64,000 nt of DNA. Source: Vulcanisaeta souniana JCM 11219 (GTDB lineage Archaea; Thermoproteota; Thermoprotei; Thermoproteales; Thermocladiaceae). How positions within the stretch are numbered: position 1 is the stretch's first letter; every line of letters begins with the position of its first letter. The stretch spans positions 496,001 to 560,000 of the forward strand of contig NZ_AP026830.1 in the NCBI RefSeq assembly GCF_026000775.1. The letters run 5' to 3'. Shown piece by piece: positions 46,811 through 58,351 of this stretch. The notes beneath the pieces were generated by a model. It was not told the DNA's origin and did not search any database. It saw only the letters and a list, made by a program, of their open reading frames with translations. A program made the translations under genes and the position numbers.

Positions 46811-48892
46811 TTATGCATACCTATCACGCATAAAATCAGTAAGTACGTTACGTAAAGTCTCCTCATTAACTATGGGTGTGGTGCATGCGGAATATGCACA
46901 GACATACGCCAACGGGCTCCCTTTTCTCCTGTATTCATTTACCATAGCCCTTATTGAGTTATCCATTAATAAGTCGTCGACGCTATCACTAATAATTGGG
47001 ATCACCAACTTACCTGGCCTAAAGGTCCTTAATGCTGTCTTTAAAAGCCTCATGAAATCGTCATTGGCATCACCAACAATTACCACCTTAGGCGGATCCC
47101 TCAAGTACCAATCAAGGGCTATGAAGTATGATGATGTCGCAGTACCGTACCTCATTGCCAGGGAGTATAACGCCCTTATTCCGTTATTAACCTCCTTGCT
47201 GAACTTGTCAATGCCAGTCACCCTATATAGGTTCATTAAAGCAATCAACGCCAGGGAGTTTGGGCTCCAATTCGGCGTGTCTGCAATGGGCTTTATCCTT
47301 AGCGTCATTGGCTCATCGGGCATGTCCGTATCGTAGAAACCACTATCTGGCGCCCTAAACTTATCAACTATGTCATTACCGAGCTTAATCGCGAACTCCA
47401 GGTACTTCCTATTACCCGTATGACTATACGCCACCAACGCGGCTAGAAGCGTGTAGGAATAATCCTCCAGTAAACCTGGTAGTGAAAGAGTGTTGCATCT
47501 GAATGCCCTACGTAATCCATCATTTCTATACATGTTATTCATAATAAAGTCGACAGTCTTTAACGAATGTTCAATTACGTCATTAATACCCATATAATCA
47601 CTAGCCATTGTATACGCGATGGACATGGCCGAAGACCAGCCGGCGTATATTGTGGTGTCTATTCGAGGGTTCTTTCTTTGGCTCCTTGCATTAATCATCT
47701 TACTTATTGCGGAGTTAAGCAACGACCTAGTCATATCAATGCTAATACCCAACTTATTAGCGACCTCCTCAATACCTAATGCTCTGTGTAAAACGACTTT
47801 CTCATTACCCTGAAACCTAAATACGCCGAAGTACCAATAAATAACATTGAACTCATCATTCGATAACAACCCCCTCAACTCATCAACACTCCATTTATAG
47901 TAACCACCCTCATCCCTAAAGTCAGCATCGGCATCCTGACTGGCGTAGTAACCACCGTCGGGGTTTGCCAACGTACCATTAACATAATTAATAATGCCCG
48001 CCCCAATTTCTCGTAACTCATTATCCATGGTAACGGCGTATGCCTCGGAATAATTCATTAGAAGCTCAGCATTATCAATAAGCAGCTTCTCAAAGTGTGG
48101 CATTAACCAATCACTATCCACGGAATACCTATGGAAACCACCACCCAGCTGATCATAAATACCGCCCCTCCCCATCCCTATTAACGTTTCACGTACAATG
48201 TTGATTATGGCATTACCCGTGTAAAAGCCCCTATAGAGTAATAATGCGTGGTACGTGACCTGGGGAAACTTAGGCGCCATTCCAAAACCACCATGTTCAT
48301 GATCATACATATCCATGATCTTAGTCACTACCTCATCCACAACACCAGTGTCTAAATCCTCAATGGTAATGGAGACATAGGAGCTTGTTATTGCATTGTT
48401 AATCTCCCTAACCAATTCACCTATCTGATCCCTCTTACTCCTATAAGCGTCAAGTACAGCCCTTAATACCCTAACCATACCAGGTAAGCCCATGTCGTCC
48501 CTGGGCGGGAAGTAGGTACCGGCGTAGATAACCTCGCCCTTAGGCGTTGCGAAGGCTGTCAATGGCCACCCACCCTGCCCAGCAATTAATAATGCAGCCT
48601 CCTGGTACCTCCTATCAATGTCAGGTCTCTCATCCCTATCCACCTTAATCGGTATGAAGTAATCATTTATTAATTGGACAACCTCTAGGTCCTTGTATGT
48701 GGTCTCATCCATAACATGGCACCAGTGGCACCACCCAGCACCAATATCGATTAGTAATGGCTTATCCTCATTAACGGCCCTCTCAAAGGCCTTAGCGCAC
48801 CAACCCCACCACTTCACCGGACTGTTCAGGGTCTCGAGTACATAGGGCGATTGCGATTGCGTAAGACATCGTATTCTCTCATCAAAGTCCAT
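46811..48892 (-). CDS. YyaL/SPATA20-like thioredoxin-domain protein (DUF255)
   Basis: 693 aa. The N-terminal thioredoxin-like domain has IGAGWCHWCHVMDETTY (about 50-66) with a CxxC pair; GQGGWPLTAF and GTYFPPRD follow. The remainder is a six-hairpin glycosidase-like alpha/alpha barrel (GGFHRYSVDSDWLMPHFEK, YASQDADAD). Wide-spread, function unclear. It lies next to the sulfur-transfer genes. Confidence 0.9.
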   Translation of the reverse strand: MDFDERIRCLTQSQSPYVLETLNSPVKWWGWCAKAFERAVNEDKPLLIDIGAGWCHWCHVMDETTYKDLEVVQLINDYFIPIKVDRDERPDIDRRYQEAALLIAGQGGWPLTAFATPKGEVIYAGTYFPPRDDMGLPGMVRVLRAVLDAYRSKRDQIGELVREINNAITSSYVSITIEDLDTGVVDEVVTKIMDMYDHEHGGFGMAPKFPQVTYHALLLYRGFYTGNAIINIVRETLIGMGRGGIYDQLGGGFHRYSVDSDWLMPHFEKLLIDNAELLMNYSEAYAVTMDNELREIGAGIINYVNGTLANPDGGYYASQDADADFRDEGGYYKWSVDELRGLLSNDEFNVIYWYFGVFRFQGNEKVVLHRALGIEEVANKLGISIDMTRSLLNSAISKMINARSQRKNPRIDTTIYAGWSSAMSIAYTMASDYMGINDVIEHSLKTVDFIMNNMYRNDGLRRAFRCNTLSLPGLLEDYSYTLLAALVAYSHTGNRKYLEFAIKLGNDIVDKFRAPDSGFYDTDMPDEPMTLRIKPIADTPNWSPNSLALIALMNLYRVTGIDKFSKEVNNGIRALYSLAMRYGTATSSYFIALDWYLRDPPKVVIVGDANDDFMRLLKTALRTFRPGKLVIPIISDSVDDLLMDNSIRAMVNEYRRKGSPLAYVCAYSACTTPIVNEETLRNVLTDFMRDRYA

Positions 48893-48965
48893 TAAATCAG
48901 TGTATGCGAGTTTATTAAAAAGGGCGTTTACTAAGTTTAGTAGGTGTTAACACTGTCTCGGTAGT

Positions 48966-49823
48966 TTAGGGTTCCTTACCGCGCTTAATTGGAGCACCAT
49001 GATTTAACCAGTCAAGCCAGGAACCAAGGTAAACCCTAACCCTACTAAAGCCGAGCAGTTCGGTTAAAACAAACCACACGAGGGCTGACCTACCACCAGT
49101 CCTGCAGTAAAGTATTATGTCGTCACTTGGTGAAAGCCCGTAATTATCAACCACCTTCCTAATCTCATCATGATCCCTAAACCTATTGGTTTGGGGTTCG
49201 AGGAATAGGTTCCAGGGCATGTTAATGGCGCCCGGTATGTGGCCCCAAATATCCATGTCATCACCTATGTACTCACAGGGAGACCTGGTATCAATAAGTA
49301 GTGTATTACTGCCAATATTGTTATTAGTGACTAGCTCGTATACTTGATCGAAATTAACGAAGTAATCCTTGAAATTGACGGTAATATTTAGCCAATTCCT
49401 TGGATCAAAACTACCTTTATACGCATGGCCATTGCAAGTGCATAGAGGGCCCTTATGTATCAACCAGCTTATTTTACTGCCGTTAAGTATTGACACGTGC
49501 CTAAATCCAAGGGCTTTAAATACCATGTAGGCTATCGCGGAGTGCCTATTATCAATCTCATCAAGAAGAACCACATGTCTTTCCCTGGCAATACCCCTAG
49601 TTACTAAATCAACCATTAATTCATAATATCCCTTGATAATACCCACACCATATAGCAAATCACTATAAAGGTTTAACAACATAGATTTTGGTATGTGCCA
49701 ACTAAGGTATCCAACCCTTGGGTTCTCATTCACCTCAACCGCAATAGGGGAATTAGAAATAAACGGATTTGCATCGGTTCCAAAAGCCCTTAGCAGTTCA
49801 TGGGCTTCGATTAATGGTTCCAC
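48966..49823 (-). CDS. two-domain rhodanese (sulfurtransferase)
   Basis: 285 aa from GTG 49823, 26 nt after TTATAAG at 49844-49853. The N-terminal rhodanese domain is inactive in type; the C-terminal domain has the active Cys in LYCRTGGRSALVWF (about residue 240) and DTRSPCEYIG before it. It transfers sulfane sulfur, from thiosulfate or a persulfide, to an acceptor. It is divergent from a DsrE-like gene and both promoters carry the ATGCA-N5-TGCAT palindrome. Confidence 0.85.
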   Translation of the reverse strand: MEPLIEAHELLRAFGTDANPFISNSPIAVEVNENPRVGYLSWHIPKSMLLNLYSDLLYGVGIIKGYYELMVDLVTRGIARERHVVLLDEIDNRHSAIAYMVFKALGFRHVSILNGSKISWLIHKGPLCTCNGHAYKGSFDPRNWLNITVNFKDYFVNFDQVYELVTNNNIGSNTLLIDTRSPCEYIGDDMDIWGHIPGAINMPWNLFLEPQTNRFRDHDEIRKVVDNYGLSPSDDIILYCRTGGRSALVWFVLTELLGFSRVRVYLGSWLDWLNHGAPIKRGKEP

Positions 49824-49864
49824 GACAATGCAATGGTATTATGCCTTATAAGTACGAATTATGA

Positions 49865-49879
49865 ATGCATTTTTTGCAT
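49865..49879. promoter_or_regulatory. putative operator 1 (ATGCA-N5-TGCAT)
   Basis: ATGCATTTTTTGCAT, a perfect 5+5 palindrome. Its centre lies 49 bp before the rhodanese GTG at 49823, just upstream of that gene's TATA box. Confidence 0.6.
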
Positions 49880-49916
49880 ATATTTATATAAATAAGAATA
49901 TAAATAAATTAAAAAT

Positions 49917-49931
49917 GCGCAAAAAATGCAT
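49917..49931. promoter_or_regulatory. putative operator 2 (one half-site perfect)
   Basis: GCGCAAAAAATGCAT: TGCAT is intact, the other arm has two changes. Its centre is 50 bp before the DsrE ATG at 49974. Together with operator 1 it also forms a perfect 13-bp inverted repeat (49865-49877 with 49919-49931). Confidence 0.5.
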
Positions 49932-49973
49932 AATTAGCACTAATATATTAAATTCTGTATAATTATGTGATTA

Positions 49974-50432
49974 ATGGCTGAGGAGAGGAAATTGGGTATT
50001 GTATTCGCATCGGGCGCCGCAAATAGGATCTGTTGCCTGGTGATTTATGGCGCAGCGGCACTGGCGGCCGGCTATAAGGTCGTTGTTCACTTGGTTAATG
50101 AGGGTTTGGTCGCCTTTAGGAAGGATGTACTGCCAAGGCTGAATACCCAGGACTTAGGCGTGACAATGGGGCCGGCAATGTACGTCCCTTACATAGAGAC
50201 GTACTTAAGGAATTTAAAGAGCGCCGTGGAGAAGGGCGAGTTTAAGGACTGGTACTCATACATAAAGGAACTTAAGTCAATTTATGGCGATAAATTCAAA
50301 ATATATGCATGCCCACTTGCCGCGCAACTCTATAACATAAGAAAGGAGGATTTAGTTGATATAGTGGATGAGATTAGGGGTGCGGAGTCCTTCCTTGAGG
50401 AGGCCTATGGAGGACCAATACTGTATCTATGA
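49974..50432 (+). CDS. DsrE/DsrF-like sulfur-relay protein
   Basis: 152 aa. The start KLGIVFASGAANRICCLVIYGAAALAAGYKVVVHLV is the first strand and helix of the DsrE fold, with a Cys pair (CC) at about 20-21. A later Cys sits in KIYACPLAAQLYNI (about 107), at the place where DsrE-type proteins carry the persulfide Cys. It is expected to accept sulfur from the divergent rhodanese. TATA-like TAATATATTA (49941-49950) lies 28 nt upstream. Confidence 0.75.
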   Translation: MAEERKLGIVFASGAANRICCLVIYGAAALAAGYKVVVHLVNEGLVAFRKDVLPRLNTQDLGVTMGPAMYVPYIETYLRNLKSAVEKGEFKDWYSYIKELKSIYGDKFKIYACPLAAQLYNIRKEDLVDIVDEIRGAESFLEEAYGGPILYL

Positions 50433-50477
50433 GACAGATTGATCATTGAATATTACTTAATTAAAATCATTACCGTT

Positions 50478-51800
50478 CTACTTGCGTTGTACCTTAAACC
50501 CAGGTCTCGTTAATTCCTTAAGGTTAAGGATACTATCAATCTCATTGTCGCTAAATCCCAACTCCTTAAGCACATCCCTAATGCTACGACCCATCATTAA
50601 TTCCCTACTTAATTCGGTAGCTTTCTCATAACCTATCATGGGCGTGATCATTGTTATTAAGGCTAGTGATCTCTCGGCGTATTTACGCATGACATCTATA
50701 TTGGGGACTAACCTATCAATCACAAGTTCTGCGAACTTTCTAATCCCATTACTTAGGATGCTCATCTCCATGATTATGTCATAGCCAATGACCGGTATAC
50801 CCATGCTCAACTCAAACTCCCCAAGCATTGAGGCATACTCGATTGACTTATCAAGGCCCAATATCTGCGCTATGGCCTGGAGGAGGGACTCCACGGTAAC
50901 TGGGTTGGTCTTACCAGGCATTATGCTAGACCCAGCAACCTCGCTCTGTGTAGGTATATCTACCTCATTAAGGCCTGTAAACGGTCCCGAAAACATTAAC
51001 CTAATATCCTGACCAAACCTGTGAAGGTCCAGTGACAATACCCTAATTGCACCTGATAGCATTACCAAATCGGTGAGTAATTTCATGGACATGAATGGGT
51101 TAACCTTTATGAAATCCAGCCCACTCACCTCATTAATTACCTTAATAACCTCATCACCAAAATTTGGATGTGTATTAAAGCCAGTACCGACCGCGGTACC
51201 GCCGATTGGCAACCCCTTAACGAAATTAATGACGTAATCGAGTAATTGAACGTCACGTAGAAACGCATCTAGGTAGCCAGATAATTCCTGACCGAGGGTT
51301 ATTGGCAACGCATCCCTTAGATGTGTTCTACCGGGCTTAACAGCATCGCTAAACTCATTAATCCTCCTACGCAGTGAGACTATTAAATCATTAATTGCAG
51401 GCCTTAATGACTCCACGTACTCCATAACTGCGGCAACCCTAATGGCCGTGGGTACAACATCATTTGATGATTGGCCAAGGTTCACGTGATCGTTAGGATG
51501 TACCTTAATACCGAGATCTAAATACGCGTGCTTGGCAATGATTTCATTAATATTCATGTTTAAGCCGGTGCCAGAACCTGTTTGATACACGTCAAGTACT
51601 ACTTCATTATCATACTTACCACTCATTAATTCTTGGGAGACCTTCATTATTGCACCACCAACATCACTACTTAATAGCCCAAGCTCCACATTAACCTTGG
51701 CTGCGGCATACTTAATGAGCCCCATTGCCCATATTATCCTACGCGGAAACCTAGTACCCGTGTCCAGGTAGAGATCCCTCGCCTTTCTTACAAATTCCAT
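50478..51800 (-). CDS. fumC: fumarate hydratase class II
   Basis: 440 aa from ATG 51800 (MEFVRKARDL), which is about 25 nt after a TTATTAAA box; a longer frame to 51851 exists but covers that box. The fumarase/aspartase signature GSSIMPGKTNPV, the TGSGTGLNMNINEIIA region, NLGQSSNDVVPTAIRVA and GRTHLRDALPITLGQE are all present. Interconverts fumarate and malate in the TCA cycle. Confidence 0.92.
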   Translation of the reverse strand: MEFVRKARDLYLDTGTRFPRRIIWAMGLIKYAAAKVNVELGLLSSDVGGAIMKVSQELMSGKYDNEVVLDVYQTGSGTGLNMNINEIIAKHAYLDLGIKVHPNDHVNLGQSSNDVVPTAIRVAAVMEYVESLRPAINDLIVSLRRRINEFSDAVKPGRTHLRDALPITLGQELSGYLDAFLRDVQLLDYVINFVKGLPIGGTAVGTGFNTHPNFGDEVIKVINEVSGLDFIKVNPFMSMKLLTDLVMLSGAIRVLSLDLHRFGQDIRLMFSGPFTGLNEVDIPTQSEVAGSSIMPGKTNPVTVESLLQAIAQILGLDKSIEYASMLGEFELSMGIPVIGYDIIMEMSILSNGIRKFAELVIDRLVPNIDVMRKYAERSLALITMITPMIGYEKATELSRELMMGRSIRDVLKELGFSDNEIDSILNLKELTRPGFKVQRK

Positions 51801-52041
51801 GATAATACATTCAGGCATATATTTAATAATGCGATTACTGAATTCGCGCATTTAAACCGTAAAGGTATGTCTTAAGAATGCATGAACTATGACAAAAATC
51901 TTCGAAGTATACCCATTAAGATATATCATATGTCTAACGGTATTATAAAATACTATAGATATGTATAGAAGCTAATATTTTTGTTCATAATTTAAGATAA
52001 ATAAATACAGTTTTATTAATGTTAGGAATGCATGCATTAAC

Positions 52042-52956
52042 GTGAGGAAGACAGCCATTCACATAATTGGGGGTAACTGGACAAGGGATGGAGCAGGCGT
52101 TAAGCTATATAGGGTATTTGGCGATACACGTATTGCCGAGATAACAGACCCATTTCTACTCCTTGATCATTTCGGCTCAAGAGATCCTAATGACTATATG
52201 ATGGGGTTTCCATGGCATCCGCACAGGGGTATTGAAACAGTGACCTATTTATTGAATGGGGAGGTTCACCACAGGGATAGTACAGGGAATGAGGGAGTTA
52301 TTGGTCCTGGAGATGCCCAGTGGATGACTGCCGGCAGTGGTATCTTCCATGAAGAGATGCCAAAGCCCATTAGAAAAGTTACATTGAATAGCAATGAGAT
52401 TTACGACACGGAGGTTAACGGCTTTCAACTTTGGGTAAACCTACCCAGCAAGTATAAGATGAGGGTTCCTAAGTACAGGAACGTCCTCAGGAAGCACATA
52501 CCAGTGGTTGAGTTGGAGAGCGGTGGTAGGGCCGTGATTATTGCGGGAAAAATTAGGGTGAGTGGTTATGGGACTGTTGAGGGGCCAGTTAATGACTTAA
52601 CAACACCAATACACTACTTAGATGTTCAATTGCCCGAGGAATCAACATTCAATTATGAAGTTAATAATGGATATACTACATTGATTTATATGGTTGATGG
52701 TGAAGCATCCCTTGACCAGTGGCATGTTGCTAGACGCGGAGAGCTTTTTGTCTTAACAAGAGATGGAGATGAGGTTATAGTGAGAACGAGCGAGAAGCCC
52801 GCTAGATTCTTATTAATGGCTGGTAGGCCTATCGGTGAGCCAATTGCATGGTATGGACCCATAGTAATGAATACCTGGGATGAAATAAGAAGGGCCTTTG
52901 ATGAGCTGCGAAGGGGTACGTTCATTAAGGCAAGGCCTGAAGTCCAGGATTATTAA
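52042..52956 (+). CDS. pirin family protein
   Basis: 304 aa bicupin. Metal ligands of the N-terminal cupin: H59 and H61 in WHPHRGIET, and H102 with E104 in GIFHEEMP. GEVHHRDSTGNEGVIGPGDAQWMTAGSG is typical. Pirins include quercetin dioxygenases and redox-responsive cofactors; archaeal role unknown. GTG 52042 lies about 27 nt after TTTTATTAA (52010-52018). Confidence 0.9.
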   Translation: MRKTAIHIIGGNWTRDGAGVKLYRVFGDTRIAEITDPFLLLDHFGSRDPNDYMMGFPWHPHRGIETVTYLLNGEVHHRDSTGNEGVIGPGDAQWMTAGSGIFHEEMPKPIRKVTLNSNEIYDTEVNGFQLWVNLPSKYKMRVPKYRNVLRKHIPVVELESGGRAVIIAGKIRVSGYGTVEGPVNDLTTPIHYLDVQLPEESTFNYEVNNGYTTLIYMVDGEASLDQWHVARRGELFVLTRDGDEVIVRTSEKPARFLLMAGRPIGEPIAWYGPIVMNTWDEIRRAFDELRRGTFIKARPEVQDY

Positions 52957-53011
52957 TGGGGTTAAGGTAATGAAAATGAAAAAGAATAAATTCAATACTT
53001 AAGCGATATAT

Positions 53012-53395
53012 ATGATGAGTACTAATAATTTAAATGATGCCATGCTTACGACGTTAGAATCCCTATTTAGTGCATTAGCTGATAGGACTAGGCTTGAGAT
53101 TGTGCTATTTATAATGAGAAACGGAAAGGCATCAGTACAGGAAATAGCCCGTGGCATTAATAAGTCACAATCATTAGTGTCTCATCACTTAGCCTGCCTT
53201 AGGAACTGCGGTATAGTTAAGACAGAGAGGAAGGGTAAGTACGTTTACTACTCATTACTAGATAATGAGGTTGTAAGTATAATTAAGTTGGCTGTGGAAC
53301 ACGCAATGAAGTTTAGCCAATCAATATTAGCGTGTGAAATAATTAATGAGGAGAAAAATAGAAATGAGATAGAAACTCGGGTAAACCTTACTTAG
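53012..53395 (+). CDS. ArsR-family metal-responsive repressor (MerR-equivalent of the mer cluster)
   Basis: 127 aa winged helix: LFSALADRTRLEIVLFIM, EIARGINKSQSLVSHHLACLRNCGIV (about 50-75) and GKYVYYSLLDNE. Cysteines in LACLRNCG, on the recognition helix, and in ILACEII near the C-terminus could bind a thiophilic metal. In Sulfolobus the mer operon is controlled by an ArsR-type regulator called MerR, and this gene lies 1.2 kb before MerH-MerA. It converges with the thioredoxin gene. Confidence 0.8.
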   Translation: MMSTNNLNDAMLTTLESLFSALADRTRLEIVLFIMRNGKASVQEIARGINKSQSLVSHHLACLRNCGIVKTERKGKYVYYSLLDNEVVSIIKLAVEHAMKFSQSILACEIINEEKNRNEIETRVNLT

Positions 53396-53398
53396 TAA

Positions 53399-53959
53399 TT
53401 AACCAACTCCCACTACATCTAATAGACCATTTATGGTGTTTGATAAGTCAACATTACTATAAATTATCCTTCCATTGGGAGATATTAAGTAGTAGATGTC
53501 TGGATAACCATGCGGATCATATGCTTCAGTCATTTCAAGGCTTGCATAACCTATTATGAACAGCCTTGAATTATTACCCGCAAAGTATTTAACGAATATA
53601 CCTACTGGTGTTCCTGAGTAGCCTAAGTCATTGTATGGTTCGAGTATTATGACCGTGACATTCCTCGCGGCTAATAACTGTGCATAATGACTTAGCGTGA
53701 GAACACCGTATGCGCAACTACTACACCAAGTGGCTGCGAAGTAGAGTAATACGTAGTGTCCGTGGTGAAGGAAATCCGATAGATCCACTGTGGTTCCATT
53801 ATCCAGCGTAAACTGCGCATTTGGTGCGTAATCACCTACTTTTATTCCTACATTGACCACTGATGAATTATATAGTACAATTATGAGACTTAACGTAACC
53901 ACGGTAAGTATTACTATGATTATTACGTACAAGAGAATGCGGGTATTCACGATCATCAC
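53399..53959 (-). CDS. membrane-anchored TlpA-like thioredoxin
   Basis: 186 aa. One N-terminal membrane helix (LLYVIIIVILTVVTLSLIIV), then a redoxin domain: GDYAPNAQFTLDNG, active site ATWCSSC (C79, C82), and HGYPDIYYLISPNGRII with the cis-Pro. It faces outside and could move thiols or electrons there. Its ATG overlaps the end of the Cys-Cys membrane-protein gene by 4 nt, so the two are translationally coupled. Confidence 0.8.
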   Translation of the reverse strand: MMIVNTRILLYVIIIVILTVVTLSLIIVLYNSSVVNVGIKVGDYAPNAQFTLDNGTTVDLSDFLHHGHYVLLYFAATWCSSCAYGVLTLSHYAQLLAARNVTVIILEPYNDLGYSGTPVGIFVKYFAGNNSRLFIIGYASLEMTEAYDPHGYPDIYYLISPNGRIIYSNVDLSNTINGLLDVVGVG

Positions 53960-54459
53960 CTAATGATCGAACAAAAACATAGTCTCTTAGATGATAGATA
54001 CAGGGAATAATATGCAAGTATCAGCGCCAAAACCATTATAACAGGATCCCGCTCAGCTATGAAACCCATTATCTTACCATTAATAGTTATGGCTATTAAT
54101 GAACCGCCTAACGCGGAAATCAACATGGGTATGACTGCACCACAACATAGGCTTGGCATAATACCTATTATTGAAGCGACTGCACTAAGTCTAACGCCCA
54201 CCGGGCGCATTCTATGACTATAACTATATATGCTAATCGCAACGGATATACTTAAAGCCCAGGATAGAGCTAGGGAATAAACTATGGAATAAATGACATA
54301 GTAATTACCAAAAAATAAGAAGCCAGCATTTGATTGAATGAGAATAAATGAGTATGTTAATGATAATACTATAAAAAATACCGTGGTTAATAAAGCATAC
54401 TTAACGTCATGAAATATCATAGCCCAAACCTTGAATATATAACTTAATCGTTCAGCCAT
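53956..54459 (-). CDS. membrane protein with intramembrane Cys-Cys pair (possible mercury transporter)
   Basis: 167 aa, four to five hydrophobic segments. MPSLCCGAVIPMLISALGG (101-119) puts a Cys pair within a helix, as in the first helix of MerT; the C-terminus adds CFC (161-163). It is divergent from merH-merA and coupled to a membrane thioredoxin. It may import mercuric ion or exchange thiols like CcdA/DsbD proteins. Neither role is established; I do not recognise a named family. Confidence 0.6.
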   Translation of the reverse strand: MAERLSYIFKVWAMIFHDVKYALLTTVFFIVLSLTYSFILIQSNAGFLFFGNYYVIYSIVYSLALSWALSISVAISIYSYSHRMRPVGVRLSAVASIIGIMPSLCCGAVIPMLISALGGSLIAITINGKIMGFIAERDPVIMVLALILAYYSLYLSSKRLCFCSIIR

Positions 54460-54501
54460 TACACGTTCCTAAGCCTCGGTGTTTTTAAGTTATTCTAACA
54501 T

Positions 54502-54517
54502 ATGAATATTTGTTCAT
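54502..54517. promoter_or_regulatory. putative ArsR-type operator in the mer divergent promoter
   Basis: ATGAATATTTGTTCAT: half-sites ATGAA and TTCAT around six bases. It lies between the Cys-Cys membrane-protein gene and merH, just upstream of the merH TATA box TTTATAAAT (54529-54537). ArsR-type proteins bind such short palindromes. Confidence 0.5.
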
Positions 54518-54564
54518 CTTTAGAAGGATTTATAAATATCCGTTCTTAACGTTGTGAGAGGAAT

Positions 54565-54738
54565 ATGGGTAAGCTTAGATCAAATATAGGTAGTGGAGAT
54601 AAATTGGTCTGTGAGAATTGCGGTGCTGAATTAACACCTGAGAGGATATATGTGCATGAAATTAACGGAGCTAAGCATTACTTTTGCTGTGAGCATTGCG
54701 CCCATGAGTTTGAACGTAAATTGAGGATTGCTCATTGA
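54565..54738 (+). CDS. merH: TRASH-domain metallochaperone-like protein (MerH type)
   Basis: 57 aa. The pattern VCENCGAELTPERIYVHEI then FCCEHCAHEFERKL is a TRASH domain (C-x2-C ... CC-x2-C). In Sulfolobus MerH acts upstream of MerA and affects mercury trafficking to the regulator. ATG 54565 follows a TATA box by about 32 nt and GAGAGG (54556-54561) could serve as an SD. It is 34 bp before merA. Confidence 0.8.
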   Translation: MGKLRSNIGSGDKLVCENCGAELTPERIYVHEINGAKHYFCCEHCAHEFERKLRIAH

Positions 54739-54772
54739 TGGTGCTTACTTAATAAGTAATAATGGTGACTGA

Positions 54773-56135
54773 ATGATGAGAAAACTCGTTATAATAGGTT
54801 ATGGCGCCGCCGGGTTTGCAGCATTAATTAGAGCAAACGAACTTGGAATAAAACCGGTATTGATAGGTTATGGACCACTGGGGGGGTACTTGCATTAATG
54901 TTGGCTGTGTACCCTCTAAAACCATTTTACGCATTGGGGAGTTGTATAATTACGTAAGTAAGGTGCTCGGTCATGAACACTACCCTGAGTTTATGGAGAT
55001 ATTTGCCAGGGAAAGGGAGGTGGTTAACGAGCTTAGGCGGTTGAAGTATGAGGATGTACTGGCTAAGTATGACGTTGAGCTTGTCAAGGGTAAAGCGTAC
55101 TTCACATCATCAAGTACCGTTAAGGTTAATGGCAAGGTCATAGAGGCAAGGAGGTTCATAATAGCCACGGGAGCATCGCCGAAGATACTGGAAATACCAG
55201 GACTTAAGGAGGTTGGGTATTGGACTAACATTGAGGCGCTTAATCCTGATAGGAAGGTGGACTCACTAGTCATTATTGGGGGTAGGGCCCAGGCCCTTGA
55301 ATTCGCCCAGATGTATAGGAGGCTGGGGGTTGACGTCGCCATAGTACAGAGGAGCCCGACATTAATACCTGACTGGGAACCTGAACTTGCCCTAGAGGCT
55401 CAGAGGATGCTTGAGGATGAGGGAGTGTTGGTTATTACTAACGCCAAGGTGCTTAGGGTTAGTAAAGGTTCAGGTAAGGTCGTAATTACGGATAAGGGTG
55501 AGATTGAGGCTGATGAAATACTATTTGCCACCGGTAGGAGACCAAACATTGACTTAAATCTTGAAGCTGCAGGGGTTAAATTAAATGATAAAGGCGGCAT
55601 ACTCGTGGATGACGAATTAAGGACAACAAACCCCCGCATTTACGCGGCGGGTGACGTAATTGGTGGTCCAATGCTTGAGGCATTGGCTGGTAAGCAGGGT
55701 GTTGTGGCTGTTGATAATGCCGTACTTAATACGCACAGGAGGATCGATATGATGAGCGTACCTCAAGCAATATTTACACAACCCAACCTGGCCAGGGTTG
55801 GATTAACGTTTATGGAGGCGAGTAAGGCTGGGATTAATGCTGATTATAGGGTTGTTTGGATGAGGGATGTAGCCAAGGCACATATATTGGGTGATACCAG
55901 GGGCTTAATTAAGATGATTATTGATAAAAGTAATATGAGGATAATCGGTGTGCATGTGATGGCGGAGAACGCGGCTGAATTCATAGATGAGGCTGCCCTT
56001 GCAATTAGATTGAGGGCTACGGTTGATGATATTATTGATACAGTACACATATTCCCAACCATGGCTGAGTCCCTTAAGCTGGCTGCTCAGGCCTTTCGTA
56101 GAGATATTAGTAAGTTAAGCTGTTGTGTGGATTAA
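54773..56135 (+). CDS. merA: mercuric reductase with a G7 frameshift at its redox site
   Basis: Two frames join to about 453 aa if one G is removed from the G7 run (54880-54886). Frame one: MMRKLVIIGYGAAGFAALIRANELG ends just after GPLGG; frame two resumes TCINVGCVPSKT, the redox Cys pair. Then VIIGGRAQALEFAQMYRRLG (NAD site), YAAGDVIGGPMLEAL (FAD site), and the C-terminal LSCCVD, the mercury-binding Cys pair diagnostic of MerA. It reduces Hg(II) to Hg(0) using NAD(P)H. No NmerA domain. Either an error, mutation or slippage site. Confidence 0.85.
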
Positions 56136-56568
56136 TCCTACTTTTAACGGCTTTATATATTGGGATAATGAGATCACGATTTTAAGAATTAAGTCGTCTA
56201 GGTAGATTACCGCAATAGAGATTCTGAGTACACCCATGCTCAACCATTTACACCATATAGCCCATGTAACATCTCTTAATGATATCATTAATTAATGCAT
56301 CATCGAATAATCGATACTGCGCTATCTTCATTCAATTCTCCGGAGTAATAATCTCGGCATTCATCTACGTTATAATGAACCCAGGCATCACCAGCATATT
56401 AAATAATACCCTCATTACGGACTTAACCCACTTTCCTTCCTTATTAGGATATGAAGCGCATGAACAGGATGGGTCATGCGTGTTAATGTAATAATAATAG
56501 AGGTAATACTGTCTATCTATTAAGCAATTGGGGATATTTTATTTATAATAGTTGTAGATCATTGTGGT
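56136..56568. other. intergenic region without a supported gene
   Basis: A 70-codon ORF (56279-56491) and a broken minus-strand frame across 56200-56480 (MNAEIITPEN, MKIAQYRLFDDALIND) exist. The latter looks coding-like but has three in-frame stops and no family match that I can name. A TTTATATATT box at 56151-56160 has no obvious gene after it. Confidence 0.35.
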
Positions 56569-56940
56569 ATGGGGAAGTACGCATTTGTAATACTTTGTAA
56601 CCCGGATGACTTATCAGAGTCCATAAAGGCTGCCCATGCCCTTCATTACGCGGTACAGCTTAAGCGTAAGGGACATGACGTTTTAGTATACTTTGATGGG
56701 CTTGGTTCAAGAATACCGATAGCGAGCGCCAATAGCCCATATAAGGGCTTAAAACCTGCCTATGACGAGGCATATAGAGAAGGCTTAATCTATGGCGTTT
56801 GCGGCTACTGCGCATCACCACCGCATCTAAACATAAGGGATTCACTACTCAAATTAAACATTAAGCTGATTGGTGATGAGGAGCATCATGAGGATATATC
56901 AATGTTTATTGATAAGGGCTACACCGTACTCATAGTCTAG
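56569..56940 (+). CDS. DsrE-like sulfur-relay protein
   Basis: 123 aa. DsrE-fold order: YAFVILCNPDDLSESIKAAHALHYAVQLKRKGHDVLVYFDGLG, then a Cys-rich GVCGYCASPPH (about 83-93) at the site of the usual active Cys, and GDEEHHEDISMFIDKGYTVLIV at the end. TATTTATAAT (about 56538-56547) is 26 nt before the ATG. No ATGCA-N5-TGCAT site is near, unlike the other DsrE gene. Confidence 0.75.
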   Translation: MGKYAFVILCNPDDLSESIKAAHALHYAVQLKRKGHDVLVYFDGLGSRIPIASANSPYKGLKPAYDEAYREGLIYGVCGYCASPPHLNIRDSLLKLNIKLIGDEEHHEDISMFIDKGYTVLIV

Positions 56941-57086
56941 ATTATAATACTATATTTTGTTTCCATTAAAACTAAAAATACGTGTGATAACCGACTGACT
57001 GGGTATAGATCACATCATATTGTTAAGATATTATTGAGAAACTTGAAAACTTCACTTTTAGATTTATTTAAAAGTAAAGCGCTTGA

Positions 57087-57356
57087 TTAACTTACCTGAT
57101 TCTCGTATTCCTTTTTGAAAATTATTAATTCATGGAAATAACCGTTAACCATACCCTTATACTCATAGTCTAATTTCTTCATCGTCCTTATTATACTCTC
57201 TATTGCCTTGAACCAGTCATCATCATTAACCAGCACTCTCAGTCCATAACCTGGCCTTAGCTTCTTCACTTCACTTAATATTGAGTAAATTGGATGTCTA
57301 AGCCCTGCCTCGCATGACTCATGACTATCAAACACCAATGTCTCGATTATCTCCAT
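57087..57356 (-). CDS. TusA-like small sulfur carrier
   Basis: 89 aa from ATG 57356 (MEIIETLVFDSHESCEAG), which lies just after ATTTAAAT at 57384-57391; the longer frame to a TTG at 57425 would read through both TATA box and operator and is unlikely. HESCEAGLRHPIYSILSEVKKLRPGYGLRVLVND matches the TusA/SirA plan (Cys near the start of helix 1, then LRPG and a strand with DD), although the classical Cys-Pro is Cys-Glu. Divergent from the second rhodanese. Confidence 0.6.
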   Translation of the reverse strand: MEIIETLVFDSHESCEAGLRHPIYSILSEVKKLRPGYGLRVLVNDDDWFKAIESIIRTMKKLDYEYKGMVNGYFHELIIFKKEYENQVS

Positions 57357-57404
57357 AGATCTCACTATATCTTCATCTTCATGATTTAAATTATTTGATG
57401 ATCT

Positions 57405-57419
57405 ATGCAAAATATGCAT
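57405..57419. promoter_or_regulatory. putative operator 3 (ATGCA-N5-TGCAT)
   Basis: ATGCAAAATATGCAT, a perfect 5+5 palindrome. It lies between the divergent TusA-like gene and rhodanese 2, centred 52 bp before the rhodanese ATG (57464) and 56 bp before the TusA-like ATG (57356), outside both TATA boxes. Its reverse complement differs from operator 1 at one of 15 positions. Confidence 0.6.
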
Positions 57420-57463
57420 ATCCAAACAATTTTATTGATTTGATTATATTTGAATTCATTTGT

Positions 57464-58351
57464 ATGGATTACGCACATCCAGAGGTTCTCGTGGATACGG
57501 AGTGGGTTGTTAATCATCTAAAGGATCCTAAGGTCAAGATAGTGGAGGTAGATTATGACCCAAGCACCGCATACTTTGTGTGGCATATTCCAGGAGCATC
57601 GTTACTGACATGGAAGGATCACATCAGGCATTCTGTACGTAGGGACTTCGTGGAGCCTGACCAATTTGCCAAGTTCATGGAAGAGCGGGGGATATCAAAT
57701 GACACAACTGTCGTGCTTTACGGAGATTATAATAATTGGTTTGCAGCCTACGCCTTCTGGGTCTTCAAGGTTTATGGGCATGAGGATGTGAGGCTATTTA
57801 ATGGCGGCAGGACTAAGTGGGCCAGGGAGAATAGGCCGACTTGTGGTGGGCATCAGGAACCGCATTATTACAAGGAGACTGGCGCTAAGTATGTGGTCAA
57901 GAGGGTTGATTGGGGTGGCCATAGGGTATACGCATGGGAGATACTCAATAGGTTAAACAAGGGTGAGGTCGGTAAGAGCCTAATGTTGGTTGATGTTAGA
58001 TCCTCTAAGGAATATACGGGTGAGATAACGGCACCGCCTGAGTACCCTAATGAACATGCGCAAGTTGGTGGCCATATACCGGGTGCGATCAATATACCCT
58101 GGAGCCTAGCCGTTAATCCAGACACGGGCGAGTTTAAGATGCCAGATGAGTTGAGGAGACTTTACGAACAGTACGGAATTACGCCAGATAAGGAAGTAAT
58201 AACCTACTGTAGAATTGCCGAGAGGGCATCCCACACTTGGTTCGTATTGAAGTACCTATTGGGTTATCCCTCGGTTAGGGTATACGATGGTTCATGGGCA
58301 GAGTGGGGAAACATGGTTGGTGTTCCGATAAAGAAGGGTCAAGAACCTTAA
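57464..58351 (+). CDS. two-domain rhodanese (thiosulfate sulfurtransferase-like)
   Basis: 295 aa from ATG 57464. N-terminal domain with VLVDTEWVVNHLKDP and YGDYNNWFAAYAFWVFKVYG; C-terminal domain with VDVRSSKEYTGE, GGHIPGAINIPWSLA and the active loop TYCRIAERASHTWFV (Cys about 243). It moves sulfur from thiosulfate or a persulfide. Same family as the gene at 48966-49823 but with a different loop (CRIAERA against CRTGGRS), so donors or acceptors may differ. Confidence 0.9.
   Translation: MDYAHPEVLVDTEWVVNHLKDPKVKIVEVDYDPSTAYFVWHIPGASLLTWKDHIRHSVRRDFVEPDQFAKFMEERGISNDTTVVLYGDYNNWFAAYAFWVFKVYGHEDVRLFNGGRTKWARENRPTCGGHQEPHYYKETGAKYVVKRVDWGGHRVYAWEILNRLNKGEVGKSLMLVDVRSSKEYTGEITAPPEYPNEHAQVGGHIPGAINIPWSLAVNPDTGEFKMPDELRRLYEQYGITPDKEVITYCRIAERASHTWFVLKYLLGYPSVRVYDGSWAEWGNMVGVPIKKGQEP

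Follow-up and report, generated by a model that had tools for sequence, protein, structure and literature searches.

A thioredoxin-coupled membrane protein with a probable MerT/MerF-like core beside merA in Vulcanisaeta souniana

Genes and operator at the mer locus

The window analysed here, a 64 kb stretch of DNA from the hot-spring archaeon Vulcanisaeta souniana, contains two divergent gene units next to the gene of a regulator. The minus-strand unit, taken from the list of open reading frames, encodes a membrane protein of 167 amino acids with four transmembrane helices (53956–54459), called the CC protein in the following, and a TlpA/ResA-like thioredoxin of 186 amino acids with an N-terminal membrane anchor (53399–53959); according to the coordinates, the ends of both genes have 4 nt in common. 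The CC protein carries the vicinal cysteine pair C105-C106 (codons at 54142–54147, minus strand) and a C-terminal CFC motif (residues 161–163; 53971–53979, minus strand), and the thioredoxin shows a WCSSC active site from W78 to C82 (53714–53728, minus strand). Divergent from this pair, the plus strand encodes merH, a TRASH/YHS-type zinc-finger protein recognised by Pfam (54565–54738), followed by the mercuric reductase gene merA (54773–56135). An ArsR/SmtB-family regulator gene (53012–53395, plus strand; Pfam HTH_5 and NF033788 over cut-off) is convergent with the TlpA-like gene. Hereby, merA was assigned by TIGR02053 with 550 bits against a curated cut-off of 454, scored on the downstream open frame. 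In the alignment with the intact copy of the genome G008, the G7 run at 54880–54886 is longer by a single G, which splits the frame and separates the N-terminal nucleotide-binding motif from the remainder, apparently as a sequencing error or a real frameshift. Sulfur and thiol genes are found around the mer locus as well (46811–58351), encoding a DsbH/YyaL-type thioredoxin protein, two double-rhodanese proteins and one or two DsrE-like proteins.

The intergenic region contains a palindrome, ATATGAATATTTGTTCAT (54500–54519, no strand assigned), which lies between the divergent units, would be common to both transcripts and has been conserved in both G008 and G012. Its core, TGAATA-TT-TGTTCA, is an imperfect inverted repeat of the 12-2-12 type that is located near the promoters and kept in all three genomes; the ArsR/SmtB 12-2-12 repeat has the form TGAAYA-NN-TRTTCA (PMC8790569). 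Within the 64 kb window, ATGAATATTTGTTCAT (54502–54517) is the sole match to ATGAAN6TTCAT. Putative TATA-like elements, picked by eye, lie on either side, at 54482–54490 (minus strand) for the CC-protein gene and, as TTTATAAATAT, at 54529–54539 (plus strand) for merH-merA. We thus predict that the palindrome is an ArsR/SmtB-type operator bound by protein, with the regulator encoded at 53012–53395, whose gene also adjoins the cluster in G008 and G012, as the candidate binder. An earlier note on this DNA had described the CC, CFC and WCSSC motifs, the overlap, the divergence and an ArsR-type palindromic site between the units; the description proved correct in every detail checked, and the site is conserved.

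The complete layout of five genes (arsR, TlpA-like, CC protein, merH, merA) is present in three genomes, V. souniana, G008 and G012, and the gene pair alone in four more, so that the arrangement is not a product of chance. In one of these, G014, the pair and merA are found on different contigs. Here, exactly two symmetric palindromes occur in 1.9 Mb (0.5 expected), one between merH-merA and arsR and the other about 55 nt upstream of the start codon of the pair, which we rank above every other indication that the pair may belong to the mercury regulon. Upstream of the pair in the two Thermocladium genomes, G017 and G020, a different conserved palindrome is located, TGCATAATATGCA (L043 5848, L044 45), and in G053 the upstream site is likewise not the same as the operator palindrome. 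That the units are mere neighbours without functional connection is hardly credible to us: G004, a complete genome of the same genus, lives without merA over cut-off and without the pair, but this joint absence equally argues for a connection, as do the conservation of the cluster across genera, the 4-nt overlap in three genomes and the common operator even where the genes are unlinked.

The membrane protein and its relation to MerT and MerF

Hydropathy of the CC protein indicates four helices, with C105-C106 in helix 3 and CFC at the C-terminal end; a three-sequence structure model, poor at a pLDDT of 48, likewise shows four helices. In most of the CC-clade and thaumarchaeal members examined, positive charge is found in the loop that joins helix 2 to helix 3 and at the C-terminal end; the charge pattern is weaker in haloarchaeal relatives. 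From these charges, both termini are predicted to be inside the cell. Helix 3, carrying C105-C106, would hence run from inside to outside and helix 4 would return, placing C161 and C163 in the cytoplasm. Among the C-terminal cysteines only the last one is invariant, C163 being so across the 26-member superfamily alignment.

Searches with family models gave no assignment. The CC protein has no match among the Pfam, NCBIfam or PHROGs models; the MerT HMM (PF02411) matches none of the 12 members of the alignment that comprises the CC clade and the thaumarchaeal CxC members, and finds nothing over cut-off in the V. souniana genome. CcdA/DsbD (PF02683) yields neither an HMM nor a profile match to the CC protein, a phmmer search of the PDB with its sequence alone returned no meaningful match, and BLAST of the CC protein and its G012 relative against plasmids returned none. 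The statement of the earlier note that the protein is not a recognisable MerT is thus borne out at the HMM level. We do not file the CC protein as MerT, because it shows no MerT HMM match, has another number of helices and is not accompanied by a MerP partner.

To compare profiles, we used MerT and MerF reference sets from annotated plasmid mer operons and three alignments, A1 (CC clade alone), A3 (plus the thaumarchaeal CxC members) and A7 (full superfamily). Against MerT, hhalign gave 68% for A1, 87% for A3 and 96% for A7 (pairwise E 4e-9 over 72 columns), and A7 reached 91% against MerF, values which are rough since they derive from pairwise comparisons of small alignments. The paired segments are helix 3, loop, helix 4 and cysteine of the superfamily with helix 1, loop, helix 2 and Cys76 of MerT. 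In each MerT comparison, all 60 block-shuffled profiles stayed below the observed score. With every cysteine masked, A7 still gives 92% against MerT and 90% against MerF, and the match is thus not due to the CC motif alone. For the CC clade alone, masking reduces the value against MerT to 1.5%, and the link of this clade to MerT is carried by the bridging families. The A7 profile, run against the sequences of the entire PDB, returned two weak matches only, one of which is MerF, over the same helices (E 0.26). CcdA/DsbD and TrkH, tried as further relatives, were ruled out, as the profile controls CcdA and TrkH stayed below 7%.

Taken together, the C-terminal half of the CC protein is probably homologous to the MerT/MerF core, as judged by these profiles. 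The likeness to MerT pointed out by the earlier note is therefore real at the profile level and resides in the CC helix, the next helix and the terminal cysteine. Of the families that it had named for an HMM comparison, none (MerT, CcdA, DsbD) matches by HMM, and MerT does match in the profile comparison.

The thioredoxin partner, the superfamily and the link to merA

The TlpA-like protein scores over cut-off with Pfam Redoxin/AhpC-TSA. Its AlphaFold model (pLDDT 76) consists of an N-terminal anchor helix and a thioredoxin fold with ResA among the PDB structures as best matches, and every TlpA-like partner retains the CxxC motif. Fold, anchor and motif hence all agree with a TlpA/ResA-like protein; the ResA subfamily proper (NF002854) is not reached, with 35 bits against a cut-off of 170. 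By the usual rule for N-terminal anchors, the thioredoxin domain should lie outside the cell. The neighbour of the CC protein is thus of the Redoxin/TlpA-like type and not an HMA-fold MerP, and no MerP is present. In the V. souniana genome we found VKOR and no CcdA/DsbD, so that the TlpA-like protein is left without a canonical electron source.

Close relatives of the CC protein occur in G008, G012, G014, G017, G020 and G053, with G014, G017 and G020 belonging to one further genus. All seven CC members retain the vicinal pair, and the gene of each overlaps that of a TlpA-like protein with CxxC which follows it, whereas relatives outside the clade carry CxC or CPxC instead. The motif classes each form one clade in a tree built from 63 sequences, and the CC clade is monophyletic (support 96/90, to be read with long-branch cautions). 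By profile search, more distant relatives are found in two thaumarchaeal families, in most of the genomes sampled from f16 and in some from f53, both of which we take to be ammonia-oxidising archaea. These relatives fall into a CxC clade with the motif GACSCG, a CPxC clade and a long form, about 280 amino acids in length. At 23 of 25 distinct loci, 21 of them on the same strand, a DsbA gene adjoins the CxC clade, usually with a spacing of 0 to -4 nt. The GACSCG proteins beside DsbA are undescribed four-helix proteins without a Pfam family, and most of the genomes sampled from one thaumarchaeal family encode them (L030, L031, L033, L119-L138). The long relatives (274–297 amino acids; L140, L155-L159) contain an extra N-terminal membrane part with CCD and a C-terminal CPTC part that resembles the four-helix proteins.

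A Rhodococcus plasmid with a weak match to MerT led us to a bacterial and haloarchaeal CPxCNK family, which is adjoined by thioredoxin, DsbA, CcdA or DsbD genes at 7 of 10 aligned loci. Four-helix proteins of this type, annotated as hypothetical, are found in actinobacteria, haloarchaea and proteobacteria, mostly beside thioredoxin-CcdA or DsbA, and on plasmids (L081, L090-L096, L106-L108). The archaeal and the CPxCNK profiles independently recover the same thaumarchaeal loci, and both groups thus belong to one superfamily. Since this superfamily is widespread without merA, beside DsbA, thioredoxin and CcdA genes, its ancestral role was probably thiol exchange.

These neighbours lend weight to the main rival of mercury import, a mercury-induced relay in which electrons instead of Hg would cross the membrane to the TlpA-like thioredoxin, which in turn would repair oxidised and Hg- or metal-blocked thiols outside the cell, with the control by Hg being kept. 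The invariant CxxC of the partners and the missing canonical electron source in V. souniana fit such a relay. We nevertheless consider it less likely than import, given that CxC or CPxC is the motif of the redox-linked relatives and a vicinal CC that of the mer-linked clade; by established chemistry, a vicinal pair is well matched to Hg(II) and poorly suited to disulfide cycling. The probable homology to MerT and MerF likewise argues against it, as does the co-occurrence with merA described in the following, merA being a requirement of import, not of repair.

Within the family f1, six of the 25 genomes carry the pair; four of these six, and no other genome of the family, have merA over cut-off. 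merA thus occurs in 4/6 carriers and 0/19 non-carriers (Fisher p 0.0012, for related genomes that are not independent), or in 5/6 carriers when the frameshifted HMA-MerA of G020 is counted. Over all seven CC-clade genomes, merA is found in five, probably six; the exception is G017, in which merA was not found in an assembly that is 76% complete. The merA run of G053 includes arsR, DsrE-like, TusA-like and cysteine-synthase-like genes (L085 2287-5813). Conversely, the CC protein is absent from twelve other merA genomes of the 61, and MerA over cut-off from all 30 thaumarchaeal genomes that carry relatives. The phylogenetic profile proposed by the earlier note therefore divides, as the CC clade tracks merA and the wider superfamily is common without it. 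Wide occurrence of homologues without merA together with a clear grouping in another family, which the note had named as speaking against its idea, applies in half: the superfamily beyond the CC clade is common without merA and is paired with DsbA, thioredoxin and CcdA. For the clade itself, synteny, the common operator and genome co-occurrence support the connection to mer.

The spread of the superfamily without merA, one haloarchaeal and one Rhodococcus copy near heavy-metal P-type ATPases and the presence of the pair in G017 would also suit a module for thiols or metal(loid)s without specificity for mercury, serving for instance copper or arsenite handling or extracytoplasmic protein folding, that merely stands under the same ArsR-type operator. 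We regard such a module as improbable, since apart from G017 the CC clade is confined to merA genomes and since a merA-type operator precedes the pair even where it is unlinked, in G014.

Proposed mercury uptake and comparison with known systems

Our preferred reading is that the pair constitutes a mercury-regulated importer with a MerT core, in which the thioredoxin takes the place of MerP; transport is hereby a proposal drawn from sequence, for and against which we see the case as evenly poised. The MerT/MerF-like core would be formed by helices 3 and 4 of the four-helix protein, following two extra helices. Extracytoplasmic Hg(II), which we infer to be the cargo, would be captured by the thiols of the membrane-anchored thioredoxin; alternatively, the thioredoxin might keep the intramembrane C105-C106 reduced. 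Hg(II) would then move inwards to C105-C106 in helix 3, on to the cytoplasmic C-terminal cysteines and, via MerH or directly, to MerA for reduction. One ArsR-family regulator, acting as repressor, would derepress the pair and merH-merA together. Import is favoured by the vicinal cysteines, the predicted MerT homology, the near-restriction to merA genomes and the common operator; against it stand the thiol-redox neighbours of the superfamily, the twelve merA genomes without CC protein, the lack of MerP, the other palindrome in Thermocladium, the loss of the MerT match of the CC clade alone on cysteine masking and the invariance of just the last C-terminal cysteine. A wider view, which we put forward tentatively, is that MerT/MerF importers and the broad four-helix thiol family share one two-helix cysteine core, and that the CC clade is a thioredoxin-coupled relay turned mercury importer, with the thioredoxin filling MerP's place in Archaea.

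A survey from 2012 reported no MerT and no membrane transporters in archaeal mer operons (PMC3466566), and a survey from 2021 placed the origin of MerA in the Thermoprotei, which include relatives of V. souniana (PMC8261052); in the main text of the latter, a text search for Vulcanisaeta, Caldivirga and Thermocladium gave no match. Our literature search, which reached few subscription papers, returned none that deals with Vulcanisaeta and mercuric reductase together. To the extent of this search, the thioredoxin-coupled variant with a MerT core is new, and it points to a novel type of uptake step for mercury in Archaea. If a protein with a MerT core does stand under mer control in Thermoprotei, it would supply the uptake step that has been missing there, whose origin could then be tested. 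Mercury import would moreover be connected with a large family of membrane proteins, so far undescribed, that are partnered by thioredoxins and occur in ammonia-oxidising archaea, haloarchaea and actinobacteria.

Among known systems, the pair resembles MerT/MerP in the vicinal cysteines of an in-to-out helix, the next helix and the cytoplasmic cysteine, over which the profile homology extends, and in being encoded with merA together with an extracytoplasmic thiol partner. In MerT and MerE the CC pair is required for Hg(II) transport (PMC5715351). Compared to MerT, which has three helices with CC in helix 1, the CC protein has four with CC in helix 3, gains two N-terminal helices, lacks the third MerT helix and shows no HMM match; the partner has a thioredoxin fold instead of the HMA fold of MerP, and control is of the ArsR type instead of the MerR type. 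MerF (PDB 2moz) likewise carries CC in the first helix of the common helix pair and a cysteine after the second, in line with the 91% at the superfamily level, but is a bare two-helix core without partner thioredoxin. CcdA/DsbD with TlpA/ResA provide the parallel of a small cysteine-bearing membrane protein with an outward TlpA/ResA-like thioredoxin, although CcdA differs in helix count and motif and shows no sequence or profile relation (at most 7%). Finally, operons of the merR-merH-merA type in Sulfolobus share the ArsR-family regulator, the TRASH-type merH and merA with the V. souniana locus, to which here an extra divergent pair of membrane protein and thioredoxin is added.
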